A DNA stretch of 64,000 nt from an uncultured Prevotellaceae bacterium (lineage in GTDB: Bacteria > Bacteroidota > Bacteroidia > Bacteroidales > Muribaculaceae): NCBI GenBank assembly GCA_947165675.1, contig CAMVBJ010000004.1, positions 1-64,000 of the forward strand, read 5' to 3'. Below are positions 31,321 to 57,993 of the stretch, piece after piece. The translations under genes were made by a program, and so were the position numbers. Positions within the stretch are counted from its first letter, which is position 1. The number at the start of each line of letters is the position of its first letter. The notes under the pieces are model-generated. The model searched no databases and had not been told where the DNA came from. It saw nothing but the letters and a program-made list of their open reading frames with translations.

Positions 31321-32493
31321 TTAGTTACGGCCGAACAGGTTCTTGATGCCGTCCAAGTCAAACGACAGGGTGAAACGCAGCGTCTGGTCCAGAGGACTGT
31401 TCTGGGCGGTTGCAATCATGTAGCTTGCATCGATCTTAATGACGTTGAGCGAGAAACCAGCGCCCAAACCGAAGTACTGACGGTTACCAGCGAACTTGCT
31501 CTCGTAGTAGTAACCACCACGCAGGAAGAATTGCTGATTATAGGCATACTCGGCACCCACCGAATAGGTGATGCGCTTGGCAAAGTTGTCCTTGAAACTG
31601 TCAAAGATTCCCGAGATGCTCGACTTGTCCTTCCACTCTTGCAGGGCGTCATCATAAGCCAAGGCATCTTCATAATCGGCCAGACGGGGCTTAGCGGGCA
31701 CCAGCATCTTGTTGGCATCAAGGGCGATAGTCAGGTTGTTGTAGTCGGCCAGCGGGAAAGTGAACGCTGTACCTATCTTGAGGTTGGCCGGCAAGTAAGC
31801 CGGGTCATTACCCTTGTTGTAGGACACCTTGGAACCGATATTTGATAGATTAAAACCTAATGACCACTGGCACTCGTTACGGCCAATCACGGGATAGGTC
31901 GTATAGAAGCCCGAAAGGTCGGCCGAGAATGCTGATGCACCCGAGGTCTGCTCGCCTGTGTTCATTGAGCTGTAACCCAGGTCACTGTAGATGTAACGCA
32001 GTACCACACCCATCGCAAACTTCTCACTCAACTTGCGGCTATAGCCCACGTCCACAGCCATCTCAAACGGGTTGATGGTCGCCAGGGTGGCGCCTTCGCC
32101 ATCGGTAGCCATCACCTCACCCAGCGAGAAATAGCGCAACGAGGCACTTATGGCCTGGTTATCACTGCTACCTATCTTGTAATAGCCTGCCAAATTGGCC
32201 AGATAGATGTCGTTGACAATCTTGCGCAGCCAGGGTGTATAGGACAGCGACACACCCGCTCTGCTATAGGCAAAGGCGTACTTCGACGGGTTCCAGAATT
32301 GTGAGTTGACATCAGCCTCGGTAGCGGCACCGAGGTCACCCATCGACGCACCACGCGCATCAGGGGTAATACTCAACGAAGTAACACCCGTAGTGACTGG
32401 GTTGAACTCCGTGTTCTTGATATCATCCTGAGCCAGGGCAGTTAATGCAGTTGCCATCAAGGCAATGGCAAGTATTGATTTGGTTAGTTTCAT
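31321..32493 (-). CDS. porV: Type IX secretion system outer-membrane protein PorV (LptO)
   Basis: 390 aa. A signal peptide (MKLTKSILAIALMATALTALA) precedes a FadL/PorV-like beta-barrel. Recognisable family traits are TSLSITPDARGASMGDLGAA after the signal and a barrel ending in aromatic-rich strands (LRFTLSFDLDGIKN). PorV shuttles T9SS cargo from the translocon to the attachment complex, where the sortase PorU removes the C-terminal signal. In Porphyromonas porU and porV are adjacent; here the PorU-type genes start about 10 kb away. Probably cotranscribed with ispF. Confidence 0.92.
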   Translation of the reverse strand: MKLTKSILAIALMATALTALAQDDIKNTEFNPVTTGVTSLSITPDARGASMGDLGAATEADVNSQFWNPSKYAFAYSRAGVSLSYTPWLRKIVNDIYLANLAGYYKIGSSDNQAISASLRYFSLGEVMATDGEGATLATINPFEMAVDVGYSRKLSEKFAMGVVLRYIYSDLGYSSMNTGEQTSGASAFSADLSGFYTTYPVIGRNECQWSLGFNLSNIGSKVSYNKGNDPAYLPANLKIGTAFTFPLADYNNLTIALDANKMLVPAKPRLADYEDALAYDDALQEWKDKSSISGIFDSFKDNFAKRITYSVGAEYAYNQQFFLRGGYYYESKFAGNRQYFGLGAGFSLNVIKIDASYMIATAQNSPLDQTLRFTLSFDLDGIKNLFGRN

Positions 32494-41449: not shown

Positions 41450-41806
41450 TCATATAATGCGAGCCTTGAAGCCCATCGCAACGAGTTGATCATGCACTCG
41501 CTGCCGGAAGTCGCCTTGAATCAAGATCTCGCCACCGCGGGCACTGCCACCCACGCCAAGCGCAGACTTGAGTTGAGAGGCCACTGCCTTGAGGGCATCA
41601 TCATCACAGTTGAAGCCTGCCACAATGGTAGCCTGCTTGCCAGCACGCCCCTTGCGTTCAAGCACGATATCAAGCATCGCCTTGCCTTGCTGTTGCAGAG
41701 CATCCCCCCTGGGAGCTTGTTGCACCTCGGGCACGTTGTTGCTGTCGTCCGGCACGGGCATGTTGAACGCCTTGCCTAACGCTTCTTTCCAATCAATAGA
41801 GTCCAT
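41450..41806 (-). CDS. SUI1/YciH-family translation initiation factor
   Basis: 118 aa. The C-terminal 75 residues (LERKGRAGKQATIVAGF, LGVGGSARGGEILIQGDFRQ) form the eIF1/SUI1 fold seen in bacterial YciH, which influences start-site fidelity in vitro. The N-terminal 40 residues are acidic and probably flexible. It has its own -7 box and a terminator, so it is likely monocistronic. Confidence 0.92.
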   Translation of the reverse strand: MDSIDWKEALGKAFNMPVPDDSNNVPEVQQAPRGDALQQQGKAMLDIVLERKGRAGKQATIVAGFNCDDDALKAVASQLKSALGVGGSARGGEILIQGDFRQRVHDQLVAMGFKARII

Positions 41807-41854
41807 AGCAATAAAAAATTACGTATCAATTAAACCATCTTGATTCTCTCACAT

Positions 41855-41862
41855 CAAAGGTA
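41855..41862 (-). promoter_or_regulatory. -7 box for the SUI1-like gene
   Basis: TACCTTTG on the minus strand, about 50 nt before the start codon. Confidence 0.55.
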
Positions 41863-41957
41863 CAAAAAATAAGTGAGAAAAAGGCATTAACAACAAAAAA
41901 ACCACTGTCATGTAAGAAAAATAATCAAAAAATGATTACTGAATCAAATAAAAGCAC

Positions 41958-41965
41958 TACCTTTG
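41958..41965 (+). promoter_or_regulatory. -7 box for the ferredoxin gene
   Basis: TACCTTTG, 55 nt before the ATG at 42021. Confidence 0.6.
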
Positions 41966-42020
41966 CTGCACTGTTTACTTTTTTACATTATTAACTATTT
42001 CACTTTAAAATCACACTAAT

Positions 42021-42191
42021 ATGGCTTATGTAATTTCTGATAGCTGCGTAGCTTGTGGCACCTGCCAGTCAGTATGCCCCGCCGACGCAATCTCTGAGGG
42101 CGACATCTACAAGATTGATCCTGACACCTGCTTGGACTGCGGTACTTGTGCTGACGCATGCCCCACTGGTGCTATCGCTCCCGGTGAATAA
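42021..42191 (+). CDS. 2[4Fe-4S] ferredoxin
   Basis: 56 aa, a complete small gene below common ORF length cut-offs. It reads MAYVISDSCVACGTCQSVCP followed by a linker and CLDCGTCADACPTGAIAPGE. The two CxxCxxCxxxCP clusters each bind a [4Fe-4S] centre, as in clostridial-type ferredoxins that carry electrons for pyruvate:ferredoxin oxidoreductase and similar enzymes. A -7 box lies upstream and a strong hairpin follows, so it is a single-gene unit. Its codon use fits strong expression. Confidence 0.96.
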   Translation: MAYVISDSCVACGTCQSVCPADAISEGDIYKIDPDTCLDCGTCADACPTGAIAPGE

Positions 42192-42219
42192 TTTCGATTA
42201 CTAACTACGAAACAAGTAT

Positions 42220-42249
42220 TGCGGCTACATCCTGTTGGATGTAGCCGCA
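42220..42249. terminator. Terminator after the ferredoxin gene
   Basis: TGCGGCTACATCC (42220-42232) pairs perfectly with GGATGTAGCCGCA (42237-42249) around a 4-nt loop, with a T-rich stretch beyond. It may also stop the convergent PorU-like operon. Confidence 0.85.
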
Positions 42250-42285: not shown

Positions 42286-45200
42286 TCAATTGGCTGTCTT
42301 GATCGGATCGAGAACGATAAGATCGTTGATGGGCGTACCACCGTAGATCTCACCATCGACGTAGGTCCCATAATAACGATACAGACCCGCCGGTACTTGT
42401 TGTCCCTGATTATCGGTAAGATTCCAGGCCACAGGGAAAGTGCTGGTATGGGTTTTCCACACGAGTTTGCCAACGGCATCGGTCACACGCACAACATATT
42501 CAGGATTACCCTTCACAGTCGACTCGACATCAAAGTTGACAGTCTCGCCTCTATAGACGGGGAGCTTATCGGCCACCAGAGTCGATCCACCCTTCTGACC
42601 TACCATAAAAGTAATCGTGCGGGAAGCCCGCTGACCCTTCAGGTCGGTGACAGTAAACGTGAGAGTATGCAGACCCTCGGCAATGTCTGATAACGGATAC
42701 TTGACACTGATTGACTTGCCGTCAGCACCAGCGGTGACATAGCAGTCGATATCACTATAGGATGTGTTGCCACCGTCAAGCATCAGGTTTAATCCATTGG
42801 TGACGGAGTTTGACTGCAAGTTAATAGCCTCGTTGTCACGAGCCGTGATGTAAACCATAGACTTTGCTCCAACGACCGCACCATCGGTAAATGTGGCCTG
42901 ATCATTGATATACATCGCATCAATGACGGGTGCCTGAGTATCGTTAACGGCTACACCCTCATAGTAAGGCTTCATGACCAGCTTATCATTAAAGCCATTG
43001 ACCATAACCGAGGTGTTGTCCTGATGAGCATAGACACGCAGGAGAACATTCTCATTGGAAGCCTTCACCTCCATGGGGACAATCATTGAGCCCTTGAAAA
43101 TGCCATTCACGACACGTCCAGTAACCTCACCCAACTTGGCACGGTTCGTCATTATATCGCGGGTCACTAAAGCCCCCATGCTCGTGTTACTGATGGAGCA
43201 GAACACCTCGTTCTTATCATATAACGTCATCGTGGCGTCTCCGTTGAAGGTCTTATCCAAGGCCCCGTTCTCGTCCACCACCTGAGCCTCGACGGGGAAG
43301 CGCTGCAGAGGGTGCAATCGAGCCGTGGCTGTCGAGTCACTCATATCGACACCCATCACTTTGGTGATTTTGAACCGGGTCACGGGATAGTTGATCTTGA
43401 TTGCAGGGTCACCCAGCAAGAAGAACTTCATCTTATTGAAATTGGTGTATCCCATCTCAAGTTTTGCCAGCCTCAAGGCCTCACCCAAGGTAAGCATCTT
43501 GCCTGAATCGTGGTAACCGAACATCTTGCGGATAAACCTGGTAGTCAAGGCATCGTTATCGCCCGAGAGAACCATACGTGAAGCTGTAATCAGGGCGATA
43601 GCTCCACCATCGCGCTTATGGAACATGAGTTCGGCGATACCATGCCTACCGTAGTCAAAGTGGGCCACATTGCAACATGAGGTGTACAGGATGGGCAAGT
43701 GCTGATAAGATGTGCTCATCACATCTCGATTGTTCCACATGTCAATACTCTTGGTAAAGCCGATAGAGCCGGCATGTCCCACATAGGTACCAAAGTACAC
43801 ACCACTCTTGAAGGTGTGGGTCAATTGATCCTTGGCCACGGTAGCGGGCATATTGCTTATACCACCAGATGCATAAGCCTCTTCACTACTACGGGGATAC
43901 AGCACACCATGTACTGCAGTGACCTGCATACCCGTGGACTGTTCGTTATCGATTTGATTCCTATAGCCCTCGCCCTGGAAGGTGAATTCACCTTTGTTAC
44001 CCCTGGAGTCATCAGTGAAGACCATAGCATTGTTGCGCCACACACCATAGTCGGGATTGGCATAATACTCAACGAGTTTGTCCACATCATTGACCGCCTC
44101 ATCCATCGTACTGCAAGTCATGCGTCCCACACCAATCGACAATTTGTCAGAAGCAATGTTGGAACCCGACTTGTCGGCCAACATACCATAGAAATCATCC
44201 GAGGTATAAGAGAAATCCTCATTGCTGCTGTTTATCGTTTGATAGGTAAGCAGGCTTCCAGCTAACGGACCTGTGATGCCACGATTGTCGAGATTGCCAT
44301 GACCAAAGAGGAGCAGGTTCTTGAACTTATCGGGATTGCGGTCATAAAGCATCTTGCACAACAGACGATAACCCATTGCATCACGCACGCCACTGGAGAA
44401 CTCATTGAACACCTTATCCTGATCGACCACAGTAACGTCGATGCCATCGACTGCACGGTGCAGGGCTGCGACACGCTCAGCCTGCTCGTGGTACATCTTA
44501 TCGGTAATGATGAGTAGTTCGGGAGTCTGAAGCGCATGCAGGTTCTGGTTCTCGACAGGCTCATAGGAGGTAATCTTCTTCAGTTTCTTAGCTGGATCAA
44601 ATGCTATGAAAAGTCCATTCATTTCATTCTTGGCCGAGAAATAATATCCTTGAACCTGATGATCGTTGTACTTGACAAGAGGTATCGAGACAGGGTTAGA
44701 GGGATTGGTAATCGACCACACAACGGTTGTTGAAGCAGCATTGGGCAACTTGAAACGTTCATTACCCAATATCCGACCATAACCCATTAGCAACTGGCTG
44801 TCATACTGTTCCCTAACCACATTGCTACGGGAATAAGTCAATATCACATAGTCCAACCGTGCAAGAGTCAGATCGGGAGAAGAACCCGTCCCAAATGTCA
44901 AGAAAGGTTCGAAATATCCTCTATCAGTGAGGCGTCTCAATTTGACCTTAGCATAAGGTGACGCAGTAAAATAATAATCATAATCACCCACTTTATTCAC
45001 ACGCGACTGGAGAGATGAATAGGGGACGGTATCGATGGCGTTACCGCAGTTAATGACAGCGCCAACATAGGTCAAACTCGACTTGTTAGCGACAGCGGCA
45101 ACCGTATTTACCATTATCGAGCTATCGGCAATATCAGGCACCGTGAAGTTAATCCGAACCTTGTTTAAGCGGATATCCTCGCCCAACATATCCCTTCCAG

Positions 45201-45753
45201 TCCTGGAAACTGCATCCAATTCATTCTCATGATAGAAGTAGCTGAGGCAGGTGAAATAGTCAACAGGATTGGTCGGAACGACAGCCTCGGCAGTTGAGAC
45301 ACTCAACTCGCTGCCGCTCTCCTCGGTCAAGAAATAGCAGCCTTCTAATGAATAGGGGTTGAATACACGGGTAAAACGCGGAGAGGTGTTGCCACCAGTC
45401 AACGAGAGCTGTGTATGACCCTTGCCATAGAAACAGATCTTGTTGTGGGTACGCAGGACGGGGACAGGCTTCAGGTCATCCACGATATCGTTTTCATCCA
45501 GTTTCTCGTTGATGAGGAAACCGCCATTTCCATATATCCTGACACGGTCGGGATTGGAGAATCCCATCGACTGCAACTCGTCGTATGTAAGCTCATAGAC
45601 TCCATTGTCCGTAATAGCAATCTTCACCCACTTTCCCGTCGCCAACTTGGATTGTGGCGTAAAGAAAGAGGCATCAAATGCTTGAGCCATGCCAGTGCAT
45701 AACAGCACTGACATGGCCACTGTAACCATTTGTAAAATAGTCAGTTTGCGCAT
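42286..45753 (-). CDS. PorU-like C25 peptidase, paralog 1 of a tandem array
   Basis: 1155 aa with a signal peptide ending near MAQA. The N-terminal domain starts with QSKLATGKWVKIAI and YGNGG motifs of the PorU family. The C25 (gingipain-like) peptidase domain lies at about residues 410-770, with catalytic H660 (YVGHAGS) and C694 (TSCCNVAHFD). Beta-sandwich domains follow, ending with PAGLYRYYGTYVDGEIYGG and DLIVLDP. PorU is the T9SS sortase that cuts C-terminal signals from cargo and joins A-LPS; whether this paralog is a sortase or an ordinary secreted protease is not known. It is the most diverged of three close paralogs and lies 14 nt downstream of paralog 2, so both are probably one operon. 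Confidence 0.87.
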   Translation of the reverse strand: MRKLTILQMVTVAMSVLLCTGMAQAFDASFFTPQSKLATGKWVKIAITDNGVYELTYDELQSMGFSNPDRVRIYGNGGFLINEKLDENDIVDDLKPVPVLRTHNKICFYGKGHTQLSLTGGNTSPRFTRVFNPYSLEGCYFLTEESGSELSVSTAEAVVPTNPVDYFTCLSYFYHENELDAVSRTGRDMLGEDIRLNKVRINFTVPDIADSSIMVNTVAAVANKSSLTYVGAVINCGNAIDTVPYSSLQSRVNKVGDYDYYFTASPYAKVKLRRLTDRGYFEPFLTFGTGSSPDLTLARLDYVILTYSRSNVVREQYDSQLLMGYGRILGNERFKLPNAASTTVVWSITNPSNPVSIPLVKYNDHQVQGYYFSAKNEMNGLFIAFDPAKKLKKITSYEPVENQNLHALQTPELLIITDKMYHEQAERVAALHRAVDGIDVTVVDQDKVFNEFSSGVRDAMGYRLLCKMLYDRNPDKFKNLLLFGHGNLDNRGITGPLAGSLLTYQTINSSNEDFSYTSDDFYGMLADKSGSNIASDKLSIGVGRMTCSTMDEAVNDVDKLVEYYANPDYGVWRNNAMVFTDDSRGNKGEFTFQGEGYRNQIDNEQSTGMQVTAVHGVLYPRSSEEAYASGGISNMPATVAKDQLTHTFKSGVYFGTYVGHAGSIGFTKSIDMWNNRDVMSTSYQHLPILYTSCCNVAHFDYGRHGIAELMFHKRDGGAIALITASRMVLSGDNDALTTRFIRKMFGYHDSGKMLTLGEALRLAKLEMGYTNFNKMKFFLLGDPAIKINYPVTRFKITKVMGVDMSDSTATARLHPLQRFPVEAQVVDENGALDKTFNGDATMTLYDKNEVFCSISNTSMGALVTRDIMTNRAKLGEVTGRVVNGIFKGSMIVPMEVKASNENVLLRVYAHQDNTSVMVNGFNDKLVMKPYYEGVAVNDTQAPVIDAMYINDQATFTDGAVVGAKSMVYITARDNEAINLQSNSVTNGLNLMLDGGNTSYSDIDCYVTAGADGKSISVKYPLSDIAEGLHTLTFTVTDLKGQRASRTITFMVGQKGGSTLVADKLPVYRGETVNFDVESTVKGNPEYVVRVTDAVGKLVWKTHTSTFPVAWNLTDNQGQQVPAGLYRYYGTYVDGEIYGGTPINDLIVLDPIKTAN

Positions 45754-45767
45754 ATTTCAATAGTACT

Positions 45768-48700
45768 TTATTTCGCAGCGATCTTGACTGGGTCAAGAAC
45801 GATAAGCTTCTTGATGGGTGTTCCACCATAGTTAGTCCCATTGCTGTAGGTACCGAAGTAGCGGTACAATCCAGCGGGCACTTTCTTGCCATTCATGTCC
45901 TTCATGTCCCAGGTCACGGGGAAGCTATCGGTGGTCGTCATCCACATGAGCTTGCCCGTCGCGTCGGTCACACGGACAGTAAACGTGCCATTTCCACCCT
46001 TACTGGACTCCATGTCAAAGTTCACCACATCGTTAACATAGGCGGGAATCTTATCAGCGACAAGATTGGCCGTGGACACTTGTCCCACGATGAAGGTGAT
46101 CGTGCGGGTGGCGCTATGACCCAACATGTCATAGACTGTGAAAGTGAGTGTGTGCTGACCCTCGGTGAGGTTGGACAGCGGGAACTCTACATTGACAGCT
46201 TTGCCACCATCGGCTGGAGAAGCAAAGCAACTTACCTCGCCATAGGACACCTTGCCACCATCAAGCAACAGCGTCATGTCCTTGTCAACTGAATTGTCTT
46301 GCAGGTTGATGCCCTCGTCATCGGTAGCGCTGATGTAGAGTATCGCATCGGGAGCGACAATGGCACCGTTGACAAAAGTCGTCTCGTCATTGATGAACAT
46401 GGAGTTGATGACGGGTGCGTTATTGTCGTTGATAGCCTCATTCTCATCATAGGGCAGCATGGTAATCTGCTTGGTGAAGCCATTGACCATGTCGGTGCTA
46501 TTGTCCTTGTGAGCATAGACACGCAACAGAACAGTCTCATTGCTTGCTTCGGGCGACTTGGGAGCAATCATCTGACCCCTGAACACACCATTGACGACAC
46601 GGCCGTCAATCTCGGCGAGCTTCTCACGGTCGGTATAGATATTGCGATCCTGATTGACATTCAATTCAGGAATGTTCTCGTTAAGTTTCACAAACAAGTC
46701 CTCTTTGTCATAGAGGGTAACGGTTGCATCACCATTGAAGCCGGTATCAAGGTTACCATTGGCATCATAGACACAGGCCTCGATATCAAACTTCATCAAG
46801 GGACTAATCTGAGCCATTGCCGAAGGGCTGGTCATGTTAGTCGTGTTCACCTTGGTAATATTGAATCGTGACACAGGATAGTTAATCTTCATGGCGGGAT
46901 CACCAAGCAGGAAGAATGACATCTTGTTGTAATTACTGGGAGAATTCTCTTCAGGGAAAGTGTGCTTGCACTGCACATAGGCCTCGCCCAAGGTCGGCAT
47001 CCTGCCCTGAGTAGCATTGCTGAACAAGGCATTGATAAAGTAACGGTTGATCATATCATTACCATCGGAATACACCATGCGTGATGTCGTCAACAAGGCA
47101 ATCGCGCCACCGTCCCTCTTGTGGAACATGTGGTCGGCAACTCCACGCAAATCGCTGTCATAGCGGGCTACATCACAGCAAGCCGTCGAGAGGATGGGGA
47201 GATGAGGCATGCTCGTGTTGAACACATCGATGGACGTCCACATGTTATTATACTTGGTAAATCCGGTAGTTCCTGCATGGCCCACATAGGTGGCAAAGAA
47301 GACACCGCTCTTGAAGAGTTCGGACAACTTGTGCTTGCCACCAGTTGCTTCCTTACGATCCATTGTCACATTGGGCTGAGTAGTGGAACGGGGATACATC
47401 GAGTTATGCACCGTGTTAACATGCATGCCTGTCAACAACTCATTGTCAATCTGGTTCTTGTAGCCCTCACCATGGAACATGTAACGGCCACTCTCGGGAG
47501 TGTCAGAGAACACCAGGGTCCTGTTGCGCCACACGCCATAGTCGGGATTGAGATAGTATTCAATAAACTTATCCACATCGCTCTTGGCCTCGTCAGCATC
47601 AACACAAGTGAAGCGTCCCACACCGATCGTCAATTTATCGGTCGACAAATTGGCACCAGAATTATCACCAAGGATGGCAAAGAAGTCATCGGAAGTGTAA
47701 GACTTATCGGCCATATTGCTGACGTCGGTCTGATAAGTTACCAAGCAACCTGGATGATCACCGAACATGCCTCGGTTATCAATAGTTCCTGTTCCAAAAA
47801 GCAACAAATACTTGAACTTGGACGGGTTGCGGTCATAAAGCATCTTGCAGAGGAGTCGATAAGCCATCGGATCCCGGGTGCCACTTGAGAACTCATTGAA
47901 GATCTCTTGCTGATCGACAACAGTCACGTCAAGGCCATCGTGGTTACGGTGAACATCGGCAAGTCGCTCGGCCTGCTCATGGAAGATGGGATCAGTGATG
48001 ATGAGCATGTGAGGAGTCTGCAAGGCATGCAGATTCTGGTTGGCTACGGGCTCAAAGTTGGTGATTTTCTTCAACGTTTTAGCCGGGTCGAATGCAACGT
48101 ACAGCGCGGAACTCGAAGCAGTTGCAAAGAACGAATAGCCCTGACCCGTCGCATCGTTATAGGAGTCGAGAGGCATATTCATGGGAGTATAAGGATCGGT
48201 GATAAGCCAAACCCTGGTGGTTGCAGTGGCATTGGGCAACATGAAGCGGTCATTAGCCTTGGGCAACGCAAATGCCATTAAGGTCTGGTTATCGTTTGAT
48301 TCCTTGATAATATTGCGACGCTTATAGGTCAGGATAAAGTAGTCCAGGCGAGCCATTAAGGTCGAGAATTTGTTATCGTTCGTGGTTATAATCGGTTCAA
48401 ACTTACCGTGTTCGCTGGGGTGTGTGAGCTTGAGGTAACCATAAGGAGAAGCCGTGGAGTACACAGCTTCCTCATACAGAGAGGTATTGTCGAGACGAGA
48501 GAGATTGGAAGCATAAACTGTAGTATCGGTAGCGCCACCACTATGGATAACAGCATTGACAAATCCATATCCATCCTTAGTATCGGCTGTAATCGTAGTG
48601 TAAACATTCAATGTGCTGTCAGCCAGGTCGGGCAATTCATAATCGATGAATAGTTTCTCGCTATTGAAGTCCTCGCCCAGCATGTCTTTACCTGTACCAG

Positions 48701-49244
48701 AATAGGACTTCAGTTCCCTCTCATGGTAAGCAAAGTTGTAGCTTATCGGCCTGTCAACATAACTACTTACAATCAAGTGTGGCTTGTTAGTGATCTGTTT
48801 CTCGGTAGAGCCCTCCTCGGTCAAGAAATAGTAGCCCTCAAGAGAATATGCATTGAAGTCACGCTTGAAGTAAGGCTTGGTCTGATAATTGGTAAAAGTA
48901 AAACGAACAGGACCATTTCCATAGAAACAAATCTTGTTCCCGATACGCATCACCGGCACTGGAGTCAAGTCATCAGGCGCTGAGCCATTAAGGATTTCGT
49001 TCATGCGTGAACCGCCGAATCCATACAGTCTAACTGTAGCAGGATTGTTAAATCCCATCTGGTGCAATTCATCATAGGTAATCTCATAGACTCCGGTCTC
49101 TGGGATGGAAATCTTCACCCACTTACCTGTAGCAAGTTTTGACTGGGTAGTAAAGTGAGACACATCAAACGCACTTGCATTACCCATGCCGAACAAGAGC
49201 ATGATTGCGGTGCAGGCCACTTGTAATATCATTAATTTGCGCAT
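45768..49244 (-). CDS. PorU-like C25 peptidase, paralog 2 of a tandem array
   Basis: 1158 aa, signal peptide MRKLMILQVACTAIMLLFGM to NASA. Same plan as its neighbours: N-terminal PorU-like domain (QSKLATGKWVKISIPETGVY), C25 peptidase domain with H656 (YVGHAGTTGF) and C690 (TACCDVARYD), KRDGGAIALLTTSRMV, then beta-sandwich domains and a C-terminus with GLYRYFGTYSNGTNYGGTPI. The last third is strongly alike to paralog 3, visibly more than the first half. A promoter with TTG-N19-TATTTTTG lies before it, and paralog 1 follows after 14 nt. Confidence 0.87.
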   Translation of the reverse strand: MRKLMILQVACTAIMLLFGMGNASAFDVSHFTTQSKLATGKWVKISIPETGVYEITYDELHQMGFNNPATVRLYGFGGSRMNEILNGSAPDDLTPVPVMRIGNKICFYGNGPVRFTFTNYQTKPYFKRDFNAYSLEGYYFLTEEGSTEKQITNKPHLIVSSYVDRPISYNFAYHERELKSYSGTGKDMLGEDFNSEKLFIDYELPDLADSTLNVYTTITADTKDGYGFVNAVIHSGGATDTTVYASNLSRLDNTSLYEEAVYSTASPYGYLKLTHPSEHGKFEPIITTNDNKFSTLMARLDYFILTYKRRNIIKESNDNQTLMAFALPKANDRFMLPNATATTRVWLITDPYTPMNMPLDSYNDATGQGYSFFATASSSALYVAFDPAKTLKKITNFEPVANQNLHALQTPHMLIITDPIFHEQAERLADVHRNHDGLDVTVVDQQEIFNEFSSGTRDPMAYRLLCKMLYDRNPSKFKYLLLFGTGTIDNRGMFGDHPGCLVTYQTDVSNMADKSYTSDDFFAILGDNSGANLSTDKLTIGVGRFTCVDADEAKSDVDKFIEYYLNPDYGVWRNRTLVFSDTPESGRYMFHGEGYKNQIDNELLTGMHVNTVHNSMYPRSTTQPNVTMDRKEATGGKHKLSELFKSGVFFATYVGHAGTTGFTKYNNMWTSIDVFNTSMPHLPILSTACCDVARYDSDLRGVADHMFHKRDGGAIALLTTSRMVYSDGNDMINRYFINALFSNATQGRMPTLGEAYVQCKHTFPEENSPSNYNKMSFFLLGDPAMKINYPVSRFNITKVNTTNMTSPSAMAQISPLMKFDIEACVYDANGNLDTGFNGDATVTLYDKEDLFVKLNENIPELNVNQDRNIYTDREKLAEIDGRVVNGVFRGQMIAPKSPEASNETVLLRVYAHKDNSTDMVNGFTKQITMLPYDENEAINDNNAPVINSMFINDETTFVNGAIVAPDAILYISATDDEGINLQDNSVDKDMTLLLDGGKVSYGEVSCFASPADGGKAVNVEFPLSNLTEGQHTLTFTVYDMLGHSATRTITFIVGQVSTANLVADKIPAYVNDVVNFDMESSKGGNGTFTVRVTDATGKLMWMTTTDSFPVTWDMKDMNGKKVPAGLYRYFGTYSNGTNYGGTPIKKLIVLDPVKIAAK

Positions 49245-49319
49245 ATCGATAATATTTTTGATGTTTCATTCGCTAACAACAACAACACTTAACGAGCGAT
49301 TGTTGTCATCTATTGCCGA

Positions 49320-49349
49320 CAAAAATAATAAAAGTTTTTGGACTGACAA
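49320..49349 (-). promoter_or_regulatory. Promoter of the paralog 2-paralog 1 operon
   Basis: On the minus strand TTG (49347-49349) is followed after 19 nt by TATTTTTG (49320-49327), about 76 nt before the start codon. Confidence 0.6.
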
Positions 49350-49410
49350 ACACCCGTATCAAAGTTTTTTGCTAACGGCATAAATCTACTGACTACAAGG
49401 ATAAAAGACA

Positions 49411-49445
49411 TCGCGCGGATAGACCCTCGATGGTCCTCCGCGCGA
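49411..49445 (-). terminator. GC-rich hairpin after paralog 3
   Basis: TCGCGCGGA (49411-49419) pairs with TCCGCGCGA (49437-49445), with a further GACC/GGTC pairing inside. It lies about 35 nt past the paralog 3 stop. Confidence 0.65.
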
Positions 49446-49480
49446 CACGTTTTCCTAATCGGCATCCAGTGCCGTGATCA

Positions 49481-52400
49481 TCACCTCGCAGCCGTCTTGA
49501 CAGGGTCAAGAACAATGAGCTTGTTGATGGGCGTGCCACCGTAGTTCGTACCGTTGCTATAAGTGCCGAAGTAGCGGTAAAGTCCAGCAGGAACGGTATT
49601 ACCTTCCATGTCCTTGAAGTCCCAAGTCACGGGGAAGCTGCTGGTATTCGTCATCCACATGAGCTTGCCAGTAGCGTCGGTCACACGAACAACATAATTG
49701 GTGTTGGAGCCGTTGTCTGAATCCAAATCGAAGTTCACGACATCGTTCACATAGGCTGGCAGCTTGTCTGCCACGAGATTAACAGACGACACTTGGCCCA
49801 CGATGAAAGTAATCGTGCGGGTGGCGCTATTGCCCAACAGGTCATAGACGGTGAACGTGAGCGTGTGCTGACCTTCAGTGAGATTGACCAGCGGGAACAC
49901 GATATTCACCGACTTGCCACCATCGGCTGGGGTTGCAAATCCGCCGATCTCTCCATAGGAGACCTTTCCGCCATCGAGCAACAGGGTCATGTCCTTATCA
50001 ATAGAGTTGGACTGCATGCTGATACCCTGGTCATCGTTGGCGCAAATATAGAGCATAGCATCAGGGGCAACATAAGCTCCGTTGACAAAGGTCGTCTCAT
50101 CATTGATGAACATGGAGTTGATAACGGGAGCGGTATCGTCGTCGATGGCATTTTCCTCATCAAACGGGAGCATCGTTATCTGCTTGGTAAATCCGTTGAC
50201 CATGATGTCGCTATTATCCTGATGGGCATAGACACGCAGCAGGACTGACTCATCACTCGCCTCGGGGACTTTAGGAGCAATCATCTGACCCCTAAACACG
50301 CCATTAACAACGCGACCATCAACCTCGGCGAGCTTCTCGCGATCGGTAAAGATATCACGGTCCACCTTGATGCCGTTCACATAGTCATCCATTGTGACAA
50401 ACAGATCCTGCTTGTCGTAGAGGGTAACCGTTGCATCGCCATTGAATCCCGCATCGAGATTTCCATTGTCATCAAGCACCTGGGCCTCAATGTCAAACTT
50501 CATCAAGGGGCTGATCTGTGCGACCGTGTTGGTGTCGGTCATGTCAGCAGAGTTTATCTTGGTGATATTGAAACGCGAAACGGGATAGTTGATCTTAATG
50601 GCCGGGTCACCAAGGATAAAGAACGAAAGTTTGTTGGTCTCAGCACTGGTAAAGGCCAACTTACTGTTCTTGTAAGCCTCGCCCAGGGTCACCATCTTGC
50701 CTTGAGTAGCATTACTGAAAAAGGCATTGATGAAGTTGGTGTTCATCTTGTCGTTGTTGTAACCAAACACCATGCGAGAAGTGGTCAACAATGCGATGGC
50801 TCCACCGTCACGCTTGTGGAACATGACCTCGGCCACACCACGCCTGTCACCATCATAATGGGCGACGTCACAGCACGATGTTGACAAGATGGGCAAGTGA
50901 TTCATCGACGTATTGAGCACATCGACAGAATTCCACATGTTGTTATACTTGGTGAAGCCGATAGAACCAGCATGACCCACATAGGTGCCAAAGTACACTC
51001 CAGACTTGAAAATATTGGAAAGTTTCTTCTTGGCCACCGAAGCCGTCTTGCGCTCGAAGACGACATTGGGCTGCTCGGTCGAGCGTGGATACATCGAGTT
51101 GTGTACCGTGTTGACATGCATACCCGTCAACAATGCATTGTCGATCTGATTCTTGTAACCTTCTCCCTCATACATGAATTCACCTTCATCGGGCGAGTCT
51201 GAGAACACCAGTGTATTATTACGCCAGACGCCATAGTCTGGATTACTGTAGTACTCGACAAGCTTATCCACATCACTCTTGGCCTCGGCAAGGTTATTGC
51301 TGGGGATGCGTCCTACGCCAATCGAGAGCCTCTCGGCCGAAATGTTGGAACCAGAATTCTCGGCCAGGAAACCAAAGAAGTCATCGGTTGTGTAGGAATA
51401 ATCATCATAATTGCTGTTATCGCTCTGGTAAGTGAGCAAGTGACCCACATGTTCACCCAGGATCTCACGATTATCAAACGAGCCAGGTCCCATGAGCAAC
51501 AAGTTCTTGAACTTCTCGGGATTGCGGTCGTAGAGCATCTTGCAGAACAAGCGGTAACCCATCACATCACGAGTGCCACTGGAGAACTCATTGAACACCT
51601 GGTCCTGGTCAACAACAAGCACATCAATGCCATCAATAGCACGGTGCAAGTCGGCTATACGCTCAGCCTGCTCATAGAAGAGCTTATCGGTCAGGATGAG
51701 CAGCTCGGGAGTCTCCATGCCATGCAGGTTCTGGTTAGGAACATCCTCAAACTTAGAAATCTTCTTCAACGTCTTGGCAGGATCAAAGGCCACATAGATG
51801 GAGTAGCTTGATGCGCTGGTAAAAAACGAATATCCGCTGCCACTGCCGTCGCTATAGGGGTCGAGGTGCATCATCAAGGGTGAATAGGGATCATTGATGA
51901 GCCATACCATGGTGCTTGACGAAGCTCCCGGAAGCATGTAACGCTCGTTACCCTTAGGCTTGGCATAGGCCATGATCATCTGGTTGCCATCTTCCTCGTT
52001 AAGGACGTTATCATGGGTGTAGGTAACGATAAAGTAGTCGAGACGAGAAAAATCGACCGTGGACTCACATGTCACCATCGGTTCAAACTGACAGTGCTCG
52101 CTGGGATGCGACAGTTTCAACTGGCCATAGGGCGATGCGTAATTGTATAGCACATGAACTGTGGGAGCATAGATGCGAGACGAGCTTGCTGTATAGGCGG
52201 TCGTGTCACTCGCGCCATCGCTGTGAACCACAGCCTTGGCATAGGCTACACTATTGGGGTAAGCAGCAATCGTCGTATGAACGACTATAGTACTGTCGGC
52301 AATGCGGGGAAGATCAAAATCAATCTTCAAGCTACCGTTGACAAAGTTCTCGCCCAACAAGTCCTTGCCCGAATTGCTTATGGATGACATTTCCTTCTCG

Positions 52401-52924
52401 TGATGGATAAAGCCCAGACTGGAAGTCTTGTCCACATAGTTGGTCACATTGACCTGGGTCTTGTAAGACACCTGTTTCTCGGTTCCACCCTCATCGGTCA
52501 AGAAATAGCAGCCCACCTGGGAATAAGGATTAAATTCCCTGGTAAAATGAGGAGTGGTCGTGTAATTGGCCAGAGAATAACGAACGGGGCCATTGCCATA
52601 GAAACAAATCTTGTCGTTGGCGCGAACCACGGCCACAGGAAGCAAATCATCGGTCGGTTTGCCCGTCATGACCTCGCTAATGCGATAACCACCGCGTCCA
52701 TAGAGTCTTACAGACGATGGGTCGTTAAATCCCATCTCACGCAACTCGTCGTAGGTGATCTCATAGATACCGCTCTCGGGGATAGAAATCTTCACCCACT
52801 TCCCCTTAGAGAGCTTGGACTGTGTCGTGTAACTGGAAACATTAAACGAACTGGCGTAGGATGTGCCGATGAACATCATCACGACAGCGCATAACAGTAA
52901 TCTGATTTTTCTAAGACTGATCAT
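49481..52924 (-). CDS. PorU-like C25 peptidase, paralog 3 of a tandem array
   Basis: 1147 aa with a signal peptide ending near SYAS. N-terminal PorU-like segment QSKLSKGKWVKISIPESGIY and YGRGGYRI; C25 peptidase domain with H651 (YVGHAGS) and C685 (TSCCDVAHYD); KRDGGAIALLTTSRMV; then C-terminal beta domains and RYFGTYSNGTNYGGTPI, NKLIVLDPVK. A classical T9SS C-terminal domain is not clearly recognised. The gene is separated from paralog 2 by 236 nt with a terminator and a new promoter, so the array is at least two transcription units. The unbroken frame and preserved His/Cys pair argue for function. Confidence 0.87.
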   Translation of the reverse strand: MISLRKIRLLLCAVVMMFIGTSYASSFNVSSYTTQSKLSKGKWVKISIPESGIYEITYDELREMGFNDPSSVRLYGRGGYRISEVMTGKPTDDLLPVAVVRANDKICFYGNGPVRYSLANYTTTPHFTREFNPYSQVGCYFLTDEGGTEKQVSYKTQVNVTNYVDKTSSLGFIHHEKEMSSISNSGKDLLGENFVNGSLKIDFDLPRIADSTIVVHTTIAAYPNSVAYAKAVVHSDGASDTTAYTASSSRIYAPTVHVLYNYASPYGQLKLSHPSEHCQFEPMVTCESTVDFSRLDYFIVTYTHDNVLNEEDGNQMIMAYAKPKGNERYMLPGASSSTMVWLINDPYSPLMMHLDPYSDGSGSGYSFFTSASSYSIYVAFDPAKTLKKISKFEDVPNQNLHGMETPELLILTDKLFYEQAERIADLHRAIDGIDVLVVDQDQVFNEFSSGTRDVMGYRLFCKMLYDRNPEKFKNLLLMGPGSFDNREILGEHVGHLLTYQSDNSNYDDYSYTTDDFFGFLAENSGSNISAERLSIGVGRIPSNNLAEAKSDVDKLVEYYSNPDYGVWRNNTLVFSDSPDEGEFMYEGEGYKNQIDNALLTGMHVNTVHNSMYPRSTEQPNVVFERKTASVAKKKLSNIFKSGVYFGTYVGHAGSIGFTKYNNMWNSVDVLNTSMNHLPILSTSCCDVAHYDGDRRGVAEVMFHKRDGGAIALLTTSRMVFGYNNDKMNTNFINAFFSNATQGKMVTLGEAYKNSKLAFTSAETNKLSFFILGDPAIKINYPVSRFNITKINSADMTDTNTVAQISPLMKFDIEAQVLDDNGNLDAGFNGDATVTLYDKQDLFVTMDDYVNGIKVDRDIFTDREKLAEVDGRVVNGVFRGQMIAPKVPEASDESVLLRVYAHQDNSDIMVNGFTKQITMLPFDEENAIDDDTAPVINSMFINDETTFVNGAYVAPDAMLYICANDDQGISMQSNSIDKDMTLLLDGGKVSYGEIGGFATPADGGKSVNIVFPLVNLTEGQHTLTFTVYDLLGNSATRTITFIVGQVSSVNLVADKLPAYVNDVVNFDLDSDNGSNTNYVVRVTDATGKLMWMTNTSSFPVTWDFKDMEGNTVPAGLYRYFGTYSNGTNYGGTPINKLIVLDPVKTAAR

Positions 52925-52971
52925 ATCTTTATAATTGTTAGTTTCTTTAATTCGTCCTTTTTCAGCTACGA

Positions 52972-53547
52972 TTATAATTTTACTTTCACATCAAGCACCT
53001 GCCTGCCGTCGATACTTGCGGTGAGGTGGTTACCAGCAGCCAACAGGTGTCCCTCGGCCACGTCGCCCGTCAATATCAAGTCGCCCATCTTGATGCTGCA
53101 ACGTGTACTGACCGCAGCCAGTAGTTCATCAACAGGTTGACTCATATCAGCCAGACAACAGCTCGACACCTCGTTGCCATCAACCATCGCTTGAACAGTG
53201 GCATGGATGGGTGCCTCAAGTGATGCTTTTTCCACCCAGTCCCCCAAGATCAGGGCGCCATCAAAGGCCCTGTCCAGCACCTTAATGCGATCATCGTTGC
53301 TCTCGATGGCTCTCACTGTAAATCCAGCTGTAAACGCATCCCAGTAGCGATAGGCAAACTTGGGAGCAATGCACTTGCCCAAGCGTCCAGTGCGCACTAC
53401 AAGGGTAGGAGTGGCCACAAAGGCTTGCGCAAAGTCTGGCAAGAAGAAAGGCCTGCCCGTGAACAAGATGGAAGAGTCCGCCATCAGATAGGCTTGGGGA
53501 ACAGTCTTTCCTCCGTCATAATTTCCAGTGAAACCTACAATCTTCAT
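52972..53547 (-). CDS. Fumarylacetoacetate hydrolase (FAH) family protein
   Basis: 191 aa, somewhat shorter than typical FAH proteins, cytoplasmic. GKCIAPKFAYRYWDAFTAGF, IKMGDLILTG near the C-terminus and the closing ASIDGRQVLDVKVKL recall the FAH fold, used by hydrolases, decarboxylases and hydratases acting on 2-oxoacid-like substrates. The classical metal-binding E-x-E pattern is not obvious, so activity is doubtful and the assignment rests on general resemblance. It lies between the PorU-like array and rex on the same strand, 42 nt after rex. Confidence 0.65.
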   Translation of the reverse strand: MKIVGFTGNYDGGKTVPQAYLMADSSILFTGRPFFLPDFAQAFVATPTLVVRTGRLGKCIAPKFAYRYWDAFTAGFTVRAIESNDDRIKVLDRAFDGALILGDWVEKASLEAPIHATVQAMVDGNEVSSCCLADMSQPVDELLAAVSTRCSIKMGDLILTGDVAEGHLLAAGNHLTASIDGRQVLDVKVKL

Positions 53548-53589
53548 TTCCTTATAGCAGAGCGTTACTCACTTTTAAACTTTTTCCGA

Positions 53590-54240
53590 TCACTTCTGAT
53601 CATTCCCATGCATGCGGTTATATATGATAGCCAGGTGGGCATAGATAGAAGTGTTAGCAATAACCACATCATCAGAGGCCTTGATGCGAATGGGCGTAAA
53701 GTTCCACAGGGCGGTCATACCACTGGCAATGGCCAGCTCGGCGGTCTGCTGCGCACGCTCGACAGGCACGGTCAGGATAGCAATGGACACATCATGGGTG
53801 CGCCGCCAACTTGCCAACTGGTTGATGTCATAGACAGGGACGCCACCGACACACTGCCCAATCACTTCGTCACGGACGTCAAAACCCGCCACGATATTCA
53901 AGCCATAGTTCTCCAGACCATGATCCTGCATCAGCGCTGTACCCAGGCTGCCGGTTCCAATGACGACAGCATTGTGGTGCCTGTTGAAGCCCAAGAAGTC
54001 CTCAAGTTCGGTCACAAGGCTCCTCACCTCATAGCCGATGCGAGTCTTACCACGGATGTTGAGAAAGGACAAATCCTTAGCAATCTGTGAAGATTGCACG
54101 TTGAGCTCCTTGGATATCTGGGTCGATGACACATACTCGATATGCAAGTTGTCAAGCATGCGCACATAGGACAAATACCATGGCAAGCGCCTAATTGTAG
54201 GCTCTGGAAGGATTGCCCGATTCTCATTATTCCTGGTCAT
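53590..54240 (-). CDS. rex: Redox-sensing transcriptional repressor Rex
   Basis: 216 aa from the ATG at 54240; the frame opens seven codons earlier. Rex senses the NADH/NAD+ ratio: an N-terminal winged helix (PEPTIRRLPWYLSYVRMLDN, SSTQISKELNVQSSQIAKDL) binds DNA when the Rossmann domain (VVIGTGSLGTAL) is NAD+-bound. Both parts are complete, as is the C-terminal domain-swap helix (NTSIYAHLAIIYNRM). It has its own -7 box. Fermentation and electron-transfer genes are usual targets in anaerobes; which ones here cannot be seen. Confidence 0.96.
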   Translation of the reverse strand: MTRNNENRAILPEPTIRRLPWYLSYVRMLDNLHIEYVSSTQISKELNVQSSQIAKDLSFLNIRGKTRIGYEVRSLVTELEDFLGFNRHHNAVVIGTGSLGTALMQDHGLENYGLNIVAGFDVRDEVIGQCVGGVPVYDINQLASWRRTHDVSIAILTVPVERAQQTAELAIASGMTALWNFTPIRIKASDDVVIANTSIYAHLAIIYNRMHGNDQK

Positions 54241-54269
54241 ACTTATCGTAAAATGATGCAATTAACTTA

Positions 54270-54297
54270 CAAAGTTAGCTTATTTTTCCATTCCCAA
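54270..54297 (-). promoter_or_regulatory. Promoter of rex
   Basis: On the minus strand TAACTTTG (54270-54277) with TTG at 54295-54297; the 17-nt spacing is a little short. It lies about 30 nt before the start codon. Confidence 0.5.
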
Positions 54298-54377
54298 GGT
54301 CATTCATCGTGATTTTTCATTGAAAACAGTGGGATTTTAACAATTCTTATCGGTTTGCGCTTCAATGACATAACGAG

Positions 54378-54412
54378 CTGCCAGCGCCAAGCATGAAGCT
54401 TGATGCTGGCAG
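54378..54412 (-). terminator. Hairpin after the canonical porU gene
   Basis: CTGCCAGC (54378-54385) pairs with GCTGGCAG (54405-54412), and CAAGC/GCTTG pairs inside. Stem is strong but no T run follows on the minus strand. Confidence 0.6.
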
Positions 54413-54433
54413 TGAATGTGATACTAATAAAAA

Positions 54434-57400
54434 TTACTCACCCGTGACGGCCAGTTTCTTGGCCTTGGTGGCTTCCTTGACTCCATCGGTCGAAATTGTG
54501 GCACGATAGACGTAGATGCCACGAGGCACACGACGGCCTCCTGCGTCGGTGAGATCCCAGGTAATGGGCGTGGAAGTGTACATGTCGCTACGACCCGATT
54601 GAGTAGCGCTCCACACGCGGCGTCCCATCAGATCATAGACCTCGATGGACACACTGACAACAGCATCGGGACGATTGTGCTTCACATAGAAGGAAGTCTC
54701 GACCGAGGCCGGATTAGCCACGCAATACACGTCGGCAATCTCGGGTGTTAATCCATTCACGACATTAAACGTAATGGTTTTTTCACTCACGTTGTTATAG
54801 ACATCCCACACGCGCAGCCTCAAGGAGTGCAGTCCGGCAGTCAAGTCGTTCAACTGATAGGTGATGCTGCCAAGGGTTCCTTCGTCGGCATATTGCGGCG
54901 TGTAGAAGCTGATCAAGTCATTGTAACTGATTGTCCCGTCGAGAGTCAGTGTCATACTGTGGCCGATACCTGCGTTAGAGAAGTTCACTCCACTCTTGTC
55001 GCTCACTGTGGCCAACAGCAAGGGAGACTCATTGACGTCCGTCCCATCGGCAAACGTCGGAGTATTCAAGCCCATCGTTATAATGTCGGGGCCAATTGTG
55101 TCGGCCACCTCATCGGCATCATAGCCGTGGATGTAGAAATTACTATTTGCCCCCTTAGCCTCAAGTGTGTCGCGGCTGTCGTAGGCATACAAATTAATCA
55201 TCGCCTGGCCATAATCATCGTCCTCAGCATTGTTGCTCACTTCACTGGGGATAATGACCTTCACTGTAAATCGACCGTCAATCACGGTGTCAACATTGAT
55301 TGCAAGTCTATTGGGACGTTCTCTATATCCAATAGGGGAACCGTCTCCATAGCCATGGGTAGTAATCGAATCGGAGGCACCAAACAAGGTAGAAACAATC
55401 GAGCCATTGAAATTAGAGGCCAGCTTGCCTGTATGATCCACGATTTCGCCAGTAAACTCGATAGTTTGACGGGCACTGAACACGGGCATTGTGTACTCGT
55501 CAACAGGTTCGCCATCGATAGTCTTGATCTGGGCTGTATAGGGGGCATAAGCCAACCTCATTGCCGGATCGCCAAAGACAAAGTAACGGCGATGGTTGTC
55601 GGAAGCTGATGAAATCGAATTTTTGGCCAGACGCAGGATGTCACCGATGCGTCGAGGACGGCCCTGCTCATCACGAGAGAAAGCATGGCGAGCCATCGCA
55701 TTGCTCAACACGCCATTAGACTGAATTAATGCCAACCTGGGGGCGCATATCACAGCAATCGCACCTCCGTTAGGATTAGTATAAACCAGTTCGCCCGATG
55801 AGGTGACAGAGTTGTCGAAGCGACAGAATTCGCAAGTGGCGGCATACAGTACCGGTAATCGCTTATAGAACAGGTTGGTCTCGACGTCAGAGCGCTTGAG
55901 CAAGCCCTCGCCTGTCCAGTTCTGTGTACTCGAGTGGCCGATGTAGTTCCACCACAGTACGCCCTCGTTGAGGAGGTTGAACATCTTGGCTCGGGCATCG
56001 GGATAGGTGCGTGCACCACCCTCGCTCACGGCATTGAAGGCATCAATGAACACATAGTTATGAATCATGTCATCAGCACCATTAGCACTGGCAATCCTGA
56101 TCATATCCTTAGACTGTACCATGTGGATGCCCTGATTCTCGTCATCGGCGACGAACATCACCTGGTTTTTCCATGAGCCATAAATCGGCTTTGTCACATA
56201 TTTTTCCAACTTGTTCACCACGGCACGAGCCTCACTCACGCTCTTGACGATCATGCGACCCACTGCAATGTTCACACTCTCTTTAAAACCTGTCGAGCTG
56301 CCATCGTCCAACATGCCAAAGAGGTCATCGGTGGTGTAAGAATTATCCTCGTCACTGCTCGCGGGACTCTGCCATGTGAGCAAGCCAGGGAAATTGAGCG
56401 CATCGGCATTGGTGCCGACCAGACGGTTATCATAGCTACCGCTACCAAAGAGCAACAGGTAACCCAACTTGTGGCCATCGTCACTCACACCTCGGTCATA
56501 GAACATCTTGCACAACCGGCGATAGGCCATTGCATCGCGTGTGCCACTGGAGAACTCGTTAAAAACTTTCTCATGGTCAAGAACCAGCACGCGGAAGTTG
56601 TCATACTTCTCGTGCATAGCCGCTACCCTATTGGCCTGTTCCATATAGGCACTGGGAGTCAGGATGATCATGTCTGGAGTGAGCTCACCATGAATATTCT
56701 GGTTGGAGACCTCGCCCAAGAAATCGGGATGGGAATAGGTGCCTGACTCATCAAACGCGATAAACTCCCTGCGGCCGCTCTTCTCGGGGCTGAAGGTCAA
56801 CTCTCCATCTCCGCCAGGGGTTGCATTGAGTTGTAACGGGGCATAGGGCGCCGTGACATCCCACACGCGAGTGTTACTACCTGCACCCGACAATCGGTAG
56901 CACCTGGTGCTGCTTGCATCCTGAAATCCGAATGCCAGACTGCCGTTCTTGAGTTTCAACTGACGACTGTAGTTAACCGTGATGTGATCCAGTCGAGCCA
57001 GATAGATTGTTCCTGTGGTCGAAAAGTTGACAGAGTAGTTCAGATCATCGGTACCATCAAGAAGAAATGACTTGATGCTATTAGATGTCTCAATATAATG
57101 CGTATGACTCAAGTCATCTGTTTTCCTGATTACGTCATTATCGGTTACTGGCAATTGGGTGCCGTTATAACTATATGAAACCGTGCTGGTAGCATTAGCG
57201 GTCTTAGCTCCGAACACCGTATAGACCGACACGGGTTGCCCCGCCACACGGTCATCGAGATGGAATTTAAAGGTCTGGTTCTTGGTCGTAGCAAAGCTTT
57301 CTCCCAGGAATTTACGGCCGGTTTCACCTGGATTGACGATTTCCTGCTCATGATAAAGTCGTCCGACAAAAGTGGTAATGGGATCCCCACCGGCTGGACT

Positions 57401-57880
57401 ATTGGTCGCTTTCTTCACATCGATGTCGCTGAAACGGCTATCGTTAGTAACAAGATAAGCCCCCGAGTTAGCATAGGGATGCTGCACCTGTAACTGCTCC
57501 AACACTTTGCCCTTCTTTCCCCATGTCGTGGGTCCCTGGGCATAGAACAGGATGCGGCTGTCGGTGCGCACCACTGGCGTCTGAGGCAGATCGTCGGCAT
57601 AGTTGTCGTCACTCATCATTTCGTCCAACGGTGCACCACCATAACCGAAGATGTGAATCTGGGACAAATCGCTACCCAAGCCCCAACTGCGGACGTCATC
57701 GGCTGTAATCTGATAGATACCGCTCTCCTTGACCGCGATTTTGACCCACTTGCCGGTAGCCAGTTTACTGCTATCGGCATAGAAGCTCTTATCCAGCGCG
57801 CTGGCAGTAAATGAAAACGTGGCAAGCAGCAACATGCACAGAGCCATCCGGGCGTAATATTTCACCATTTCTATCATCAT
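54434..57880 (-). CDS. porU: Type IX secretion system sortase PorU, canonical-looking member
   Basis: 1148 aa from the ATG at 57880 (57877 and 57868 also possible; the last begins directly with MVKYYARMALCMLLLATFSF). Signal peptide, PorU N-terminal domain (SSKLATGKWVKIAV, YGGAP), C25 peptidase domain with H649 (NYIGHSSTQNW) and C683 in AATCEFCRFD, which closely matches PorU of Porphyromonas. The protein ends in a domain resembling a T9SS C-terminal domain (VPRGIYVYRATISTDGVKEA, then KKLAVTGE). It is clearly less related to the three array paralogs than they are to one another. PorU acts at the outer-membrane attachment complex with PorV, encoded at 31321-32493. Confidence 0.9.
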   Translation of the reverse strand: MMIEMVKYYARMALCMLLLATFSFTASALDKSFYADSSKLATGKWVKIAVKESGIYQITADDVRSWGLGSDLSQIHIFGYGGAPLDEMMSDDNYADDLPQTPVVRTDSRILFYAQGPTTWGKKGKVLEQLQVQHPYANSGAYLVTNDSRFSDIDVKKATNSPAGGDPITTFVGRLYHEQEIVNPGETGRKFLGESFATTKNQTFKFHLDDRVAGQPVSVYTVFGAKTANATSTVSYSYNGTQLPVTDNDVIRKTDDLSHTHYIETSNSIKSFLLDGTDDLNYSVNFSTTGTIYLARLDHITVNYSRQLKLKNGSLAFGFQDASSTRCYRLSGAGSNTRVWDVTAPYAPLQLNATPGGDGELTFSPEKSGRREFIAFDESGTYSHPDFLGEVSNQNIHGELTPDMIILTPSAYMEQANRVAAMHEKYDNFRVLVLDHEKVFNEFSSGTRDAMAYRRLCKMFYDRGVSDDGHKLGYLLLFGSGSYDNRLVGTNADALNFPGLLTWQSPASSDEDNSYTTDDLFGMLDDGSSTGFKESVNIAVGRMIVKSVSEARAVVNKLEKYVTKPIYGSWKNQVMFVADDENQGIHMVQSKDMIRIASANGADDMIHNYVFIDAFNAVSEGGARTYPDARAKMFNLLNEGVLWWNYIGHSSTQNWTGEGLLKRSDVETNLFYKRLPVLYAATCEFCRFDNSVTSSGELVYTNPNGGAIAVICAPRLALIQSNGVLSNAMARHAFSRDEQGRPRRIGDILRLAKNSISSASDNHRRYFVFGDPAMRLAYAPYTAQIKTIDGEPVDEYTMPVFSARQTIEFTGEIVDHTGKLASNFNGSIVSTLFGASDSITTHGYGDGSPIGYRERPNRLAINVDTVIDGRFTVKVIIPSEVSNNAEDDDYGQAMINLYAYDSRDTLEAKGANSNFYIHGYDADEVADTIGPDIITMGLNTPTFADGTDVNESPLLLATVSDKSGVNFSNAGIGHSMTLTLDGTISYNDLISFYTPQYADEGTLGSITYQLNDLTAGLHSLRLRVWDVYNNVSEKTITFNVVNGLTPEIADVYCVANPASVETSFYVKHNRPDAVVSVSIEVYDLMGRRVWSATQSGRSDMYTSTPITWDLTDAGGRRVPRGIYVYRATISTDGVKEATKAKKLAVTGE

Positions 57881-57993
57881 TGCTGTATATAGTATGTTAA
57901 GTGCCTGCCATGAGCGACTCACGGGAAGCACACATTGTTGTCATGTATTCATATAACGATTATTTGCTTGATTTATTGCACTGTCACTTGCCA

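Follow-up and report, generated by a model that had tools for sequence, protein, structure and literature searches.

Genomes of Sodaliphilus, the genus of the Muribaculaceae to which the window (the whole 64,000-nucleotide stretch analyzed here) appears to belong, carry multiple genes of the type of the T9SS sortase PorU and also multiple copies of its known partner PorZ, which in Porphyromonas gingivalis delivers LPS to PorU. This joint multiplication is the main new point of the present analysis; the literature examined presents T9SS anchoring as the work of a single PorU and a single PorZ, and no genome with several PorU or several PorZ was found described among the titles and abstract beginnings of open-licence papers. 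As judged from sequence, the additional sortase-type proteins, referred to as PorU', are an old paralog of PorU that has multiplied in Sodaliphilus, and we propose with moderate confidence that they are accessory sortases with cognate PorZ carriers.

Organization of the PorU locus

Four intact PorU-type C25 proteins, three of them in tandem, had been predicted in the window, and all four reading frames are indeed open along their whole length on the minus strand. In the direction of transcription the order is canonical porU (54434–57880), rex (53590–54261), an FAH-family gene (52972–53547), and the PorU' copies A3 (49481–52924), A2 (45768–49244), and A1 (42286–45753), with successive intergenic gaps of 172, 42, 47, 236, and 14 bases. 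The redox-sensing repressor gene rex (profile matches) and the FAH gene (PF01557) lie where they were first placed, and synteny identifies both as conserved neighbors. Pfam found Peptidase_C25 in all four proteins, and their His/Cys dyads had been read correctly, with a spacing of 34 residues in each: H649/C683 in canonical PorU (1148 aa), H651/C685 in A3 (1147 aa), H656/C690 in A2 (1158 aa), and H660/C694 in A1 (1155 aa). The length of the canonical protein is counted from the ATG at 57880; a GTG at 57931 is also a possible start (ORF 54434–57931).

All four proteins score above the cut-off of 420 of the NCBIfam PorU model NF033707, with 657 (A1), 696 (A2), and 695 bits (A3) for the array and 945 bits for the fourth protein, which the original prediction had called more PorU-like and which is the canonical PorU. 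Array members are 54–67% identical to one another and 29–31% identical to the canonical PorU of the same genome. Porphyromonas gingivalis PorU (6za2) was the sole match at E 1e-5 or better in a PDB sequence search (E 5.6e-168 for the fourth protein, 1e-112 for A2), and the array proteins, of which A3 has an AlphaFold model with pLDDT 90.2, retain PorU's N-terminal and Ig-like regions. The PorU2 model (NF052324) matches weakly, with 92–99 bits for the array members and 85 bits for the fourth protein, and its cut-off of 450 is not reached. The only PorV-level match in the genome is porV at 31321–32493 on the minus strand (NF033710, 460 bits). Between a helicase gene and A1 (41450–42240, minus strand), small SUI1-like and ferredoxin-like genes can be made out by eye.

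Phylogeny of PorU'

In the trees, PorU' groups with PorU-type proteins as a clade separate from canonical PorU. A FastTree analysis of 284 proteins resolved PorU' (127 proteins, support 1.0), the canonical PorU of the family (73 proteins, 0.997), and, distinct from PorU', a branch of 81 (1.0) in which tandem pairs of other Bacteroidales families fall together with the PorU of P. gingivalis. An IQ-TREE analysis of 78 C25 domains and outgroups, five of the 83 picked proteins being absent from the alignment, gave supports of 97 for PorU', 100 for canonical PorU, and 93 for the two together; these two plus the pair L147_7608/L095_9989 had 95, with P. gingivalis PorU outside that group. For 70 full-length proteins, IQ-TREE supported PorU' (46 proteins) and PorU' plus canonical PorU at 100 each. 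Incomplete ORFs were left out before tree building, and all supports are those of recomputed splits. By these trees, PorU' arose by a duplication of PorU at about the base of the Muribaculaceae. At least two old paralogs share the NCBI name PorU in this family. Within Sodaliphilus, PorU' copies duplicate and disappear lineage by lineage.

The relationship to gingipains had been singled out for checking by C25 phylogeny, and here the array members group with PorU, all PorU-type proteins being separated from seven gingipain-like outgroups at a bootstrap of 100 in the C25-domain tree. PorU' thereby differs from the gingipains RgpB and Kgp (PDB 1cvr, 4ief, 4rbm, 6i9a). With P. gingivalis PorU (6za2; NF033707), PorU' shares the overall architecture, the His/Cys dyad, and a CTD-type end; its differences are its placement in a clade of its own, an identity of about 30% with the canonical PorU encoded alongside it in the genome, a number of one to four copies per counted genome, a less basic end, and the residue before the catalytic Cys. 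A fifth C25 protein of the window's genome (G000:C20:35713–36870) groups with the gingipain-like outgroups and is encoded near the best TIGR04183 match (C20:37743–37958).

Distribution in the genus, family, and order

Multiple PorU-type copies are a genus trait. Hand counts of the C25 listing, approximate like all PorU and PorZ counts made in this way from draft genomes, gave two to six PorU-type genes per genome and at least two in each of 37 genomes of the genus. BLAST typing covered 37 fetched genes (35 canonical, 2 PorU') and 14 further genes (9 PorU' and 5 canonical, each of the five having already been taken as canonical), other PorU-type copies being classed without one-by-one typing. 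With several PorU-type genes the norm throughout the genus, and all four proteins already carrying the name PorU in NCBIfam, the locus is no local oddity. Some genomes also have a second canonical PorU, 59–61% identical to that of the window (72% in G009, where it is a piece at the end of a contig).

The survey of named genomes yielded 258 stretches matching the patterns, 171 of which encode a relative, and the best 80 of these 171 were kept, corresponding to 65 loci. Within this set, 48 of the 53 loci holding both canonical PorU and PorU' have the order porU–rex–FAH–porU' on one strand, and the remaining five have porU–FAH–porU', rex not being found there. Runs of PorU' in the surveyed stretches are one to four genes long, some being interrupted by the end of the stretch. 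The full order was also seen in fetched examples from other Muribaculaceae genera, and some genomes keep rex–FAH–porU' together with porU elsewhere (L165–L170). A genome of another family (G057) has porU–rex–FAH plus a second PorU-type gene (L147).

The premise that T9SS genomes usually carry one porU fails here: more than one C25 match, the second of which need not be PorU-type, is present in 77 of 99 Muribaculaceae genomes (26 genera) and a single match in the other 22. It is likewise contradicted by other Bacteroidales families in which full-length PorU occurs as tandem pairs (L133–L145, L181, L183). A survey of 392 genomes of the order by NF033707 was not used for copy numbers because it scored no more than two candidates in each genome.

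Catalytic site and C-terminal domain

The His/Cys dyad is kept in all 127 PorU' and in all 157 others compared. The residue preceding the catalytic Cys is itself Cys in 102 of the 127 PorU' and Thr or Ser in every one of the 157 others. PorU' is under purifying selection, and the array proteins are very probably catalytic and surface-borne.

A different C-terminus (LIVLDP) had been noted for the array members; the end does differ from that of PorU in its last strand, but the CTD is not missing. In the predicted structures, A3 and the fourth protein alike terminate in a domain of seven strands. The Gly of the beta3–beta4 loop is present in 124 of 127 PorU', and the GxY motif has both its Gly and its Tyr in all 127. 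By the tests available, which include these models, the PorU' end is a T9SS-type CTD. A PorZ-like CTD, with PorQ-type anchoring, had been suggested by the PorZ profile matching PorU' C-termini; the idea was dropped because the CTD of PorU itself is the best hhalign match of the PorU' CTD (E 6.6e-19, vs. 2e-9 for PorZ and 7e-11 for PorZ').

The basic residue of the last strand is often lost. Lys or Arg occupies the aligned column in 61 of 127 PorU' versus 153 of 157 others, or 71 of 127 versus 155 of 157 if the preceding column is counted too, the alignment of the ends being uncertain. Mean net charge over the last 12 residues is 0.24 in Sodaliphilus PorU' (n = 106) and 2.29 in the canonical PorU of the genus (n = 51), and 73 of the 127 PorU', compared with none of the others, match an end in which Pro comes after D, E, N, or P. 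The portion consulted of a structural study (PMC11285876) describes a conserved lysine in the last CTD strand and states that extension of the C-terminus is tolerated but replacement of the last residues is not.

PorZ and other T9SS components

PorZ resembles PorU' in being multicopy in the same genus, and differs from it in being a beta-propeller carrier (PF21544) and not a peptidase. All 41 genomes of the genus have a match above the cut-off of the PorZ model (NF052228) and, by our reading, at least two PorZ, the second copy of G029 lying below the cut-off; hand reading gave two to six in the 37 counted genomes, some in pieces. The other genomes, G521–G524, belong to the PorZ survey and stand outside the C25 listing and the contrasts given below. 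The window's genome encodes PorZ at C58:4163–6463 (440 bits), PorZ-like copies at C58:1107–3398 (335 bits) and C26:1162–3483 (305 bits), and two more contig-end fragments that may be one further gene. A PorV-level match was found in 39 of the 41 genomes, as was a PorQ-level match, and never two of either above the cut-off; further typing was applied to the PorV of the window. The PorZ array adjoins lysS in both annotated loci (L197, L198) and in L198 also DUF4251 genes, and a second canonical-type porU directly adjoins it there (L198:2800–6231, 853 bits). One PorZ copy (G007:C22:45091–46824) has a single in-frame TGA, indicating a decaying gene or an assembly error.

Covariation of PorU' and PorZ copy number

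Independent contrasts on the canonical-PorU tree of 36 genomes, G031 being left out because its canonical PorU was not found, relate the number of PorU' to that of extra PorZ (r = 0.62, p = 6e-5). The relation is r = 0.62 (p = 0.001) in the 25 genomes at least 85% complete, r = 0.70 (p = 0.0009) in the 19 at least 90% complete, and r = 0.57 (p = 0.07) in the 11 at least 94% complete. Leaving out one genome at a time gave r of 0.54–0.76, leaving out the clade G000/G006/G035 gave 0.44, and one of 2000 tip shuffles reached 0.62. The relation weakens when total PorU is set against total PorZ (r = 0.42, p = 0.012; 36 genomes), and genome size showed no significant relation in the contrasts. Copy number was also considered as a reflection of cargo number and this was rejected, PorU-type counts and TIGR04183 matches being related with a Spearman coefficient of 0.21 (p = 0.22, 37 genomes) and the contrasts likewise non-significant; TIGR04183 misses divergent CTDs, making this a weak test of cargo number.

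Our reading of the list for the family puts at least two PorZ in 15 of 99 genomes, namely eight Sodaliphilus, G443, G444, G448, G449, G462, G493, and G503, the counts of G443 and G489 resting partly on fragments. These are 15 of the 77 genomes with a second C25 match versus 0 of the 22 with one (Fisher p = 0.02, uncorrected for kinship). In genus g222, both C25 and PorZ are present twice in G444 and G503 and once in G464, G479, G492, and G512. A single PorZ accompanies the second C25 in 62 of the 77 genomes, and G440, of the same PorU' subclade as Sodaliphilus, also has one PorZ.

General co-duplication of PorU and PorZ in the Bacteroidales was rejected on 45 chosen genomes elsewhere in the order, 20 with two PorU and 25 with one NF033707 match. 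A single PorZ was found in 19 of the 20 two-PorU genomes and a second full PorZ in the other (G038); among the 25 one-match genomes, one has a fused double PorZ (G254) and two have none above the cut-off (G107, G223). PorZ is in pieces in G049, G379, and G183. Given the single PorZ in 62 of 77 family genomes, in G440, and in 19 of these 20, the multiplication of PorZ is a later addition in some lineages and no requirement of PorU duplication. The fused gene of G254 (C31:63588–67628) is a single 1383-residue ORF with two PorZ units, and G038, of another family, combines two unlinked PorU with two tandem PorZ, a possible independent co-duplication.

Proposed function of PorU'

As an accessory sortase, each PorU' would be exported by the T9SS, sit on the cell surface, and cut the CTD of some cargo, the new end of which would be joined to LPS or glycan that a paralog of PorZ supplies. 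PorV and PorQ would be common to all attachment complexes, and the cell would possess several such complexes, each distinguished by its cargo, its acceptor glycan, or the condition of its use. Excerpts of a study of P. gingivalis (PMC8545088) report that PorZ binds A-LPS, that it meets PorU preferentially with A-LPS present, and that PorU and PorZ of two species do not cross-react. Sortases with PorZ partners of their own, their activity, acceptor, and cargo all being putative, most economically explain the architecture, the invariance, and the covariation. It is possible, although we put this forward tentatively, that Sodaliphilus has parallel complexes in which several PorU', each with its own PorZ', share a single PorV and a single PorQ, so that a cell could anchor different cargo to acceptors, LPS or glycan, that also differ; the window's genome would then have 1 + 3 PorU with 1 + 3 PorZ, the third PorZ' being assumed from the two contig-end fragments. 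What decides between attachment and release of cargo is called open in the part consulted of a review (PMC10202324), and a genus in which sortase and LPS-carrier genes have multiplied together, with PorV and PorQ single at the level of these matches, offers a natural system for asking whether PorU–PorZ pairs set cargo choice.

The original prediction offered specialized sortases for distinct cargo or secreted proteases derived from PorU. We still prefer the specialized sortase because of the full PorU architecture, the dyad kept in 127 of 127 proteins, the purifying selection, and the covariation with PorZ; the part that linked copies to distinct cargo fared less well, copy number not tracking the count of recognizable CTD cargo. 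Arrays standard in the family, or paralogs grouping with gingipains, had been named as fatal to the sortase idea: several PorU-type genes are standard in all 37 genomes of the genus, but the paralogs do not group with gingipains. The genomes with a single PorZ (62 of 77 and 19 of 20), the weaker r in some subsets and for total copy numbers, and the frequent loss of the basic residue in the last CTD strand count against accessory sortases. If PorU' were instead surface or secreted peptidases that digest outside substrates and have no anchoring role, the C25 fold with its intact dyad, the altered residue before the catalytic Cys, and the altered last CTD strand would all be accommodated. We consider this unlikely, as a plain peptidase has no obvious need for the N-terminal and Ig-like regions that are kept, and the counts covary with PorZ.

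It is similarly improbable that the copies simply do PorU's job, with arrays persisting by tandem duplication under weak selection on copy number. Such redundancy is consistent with the lineage-specific duplications within arrays and with second copies of canonical PorU itself in several genomes, but PorU' forms its own clade, has about 30% identity with PorU, is kept near porU or rex–FAH across genera, and differs among the copies of the window's array (54–67% identity). A regulatory role, with mixed dimers of PorU' and PorU holding or releasing PorU, seems highly unlikely. The consulted part of the review (PMC10202324) describes a latent dimer of P. gingivalis PorU, the title of 6za2 agrees, and PorU' is linked to porU; a regulator, however, would not need the invariant dyad, and PorU' stays with rex–FAH where porU lies elsewhere in some genera.
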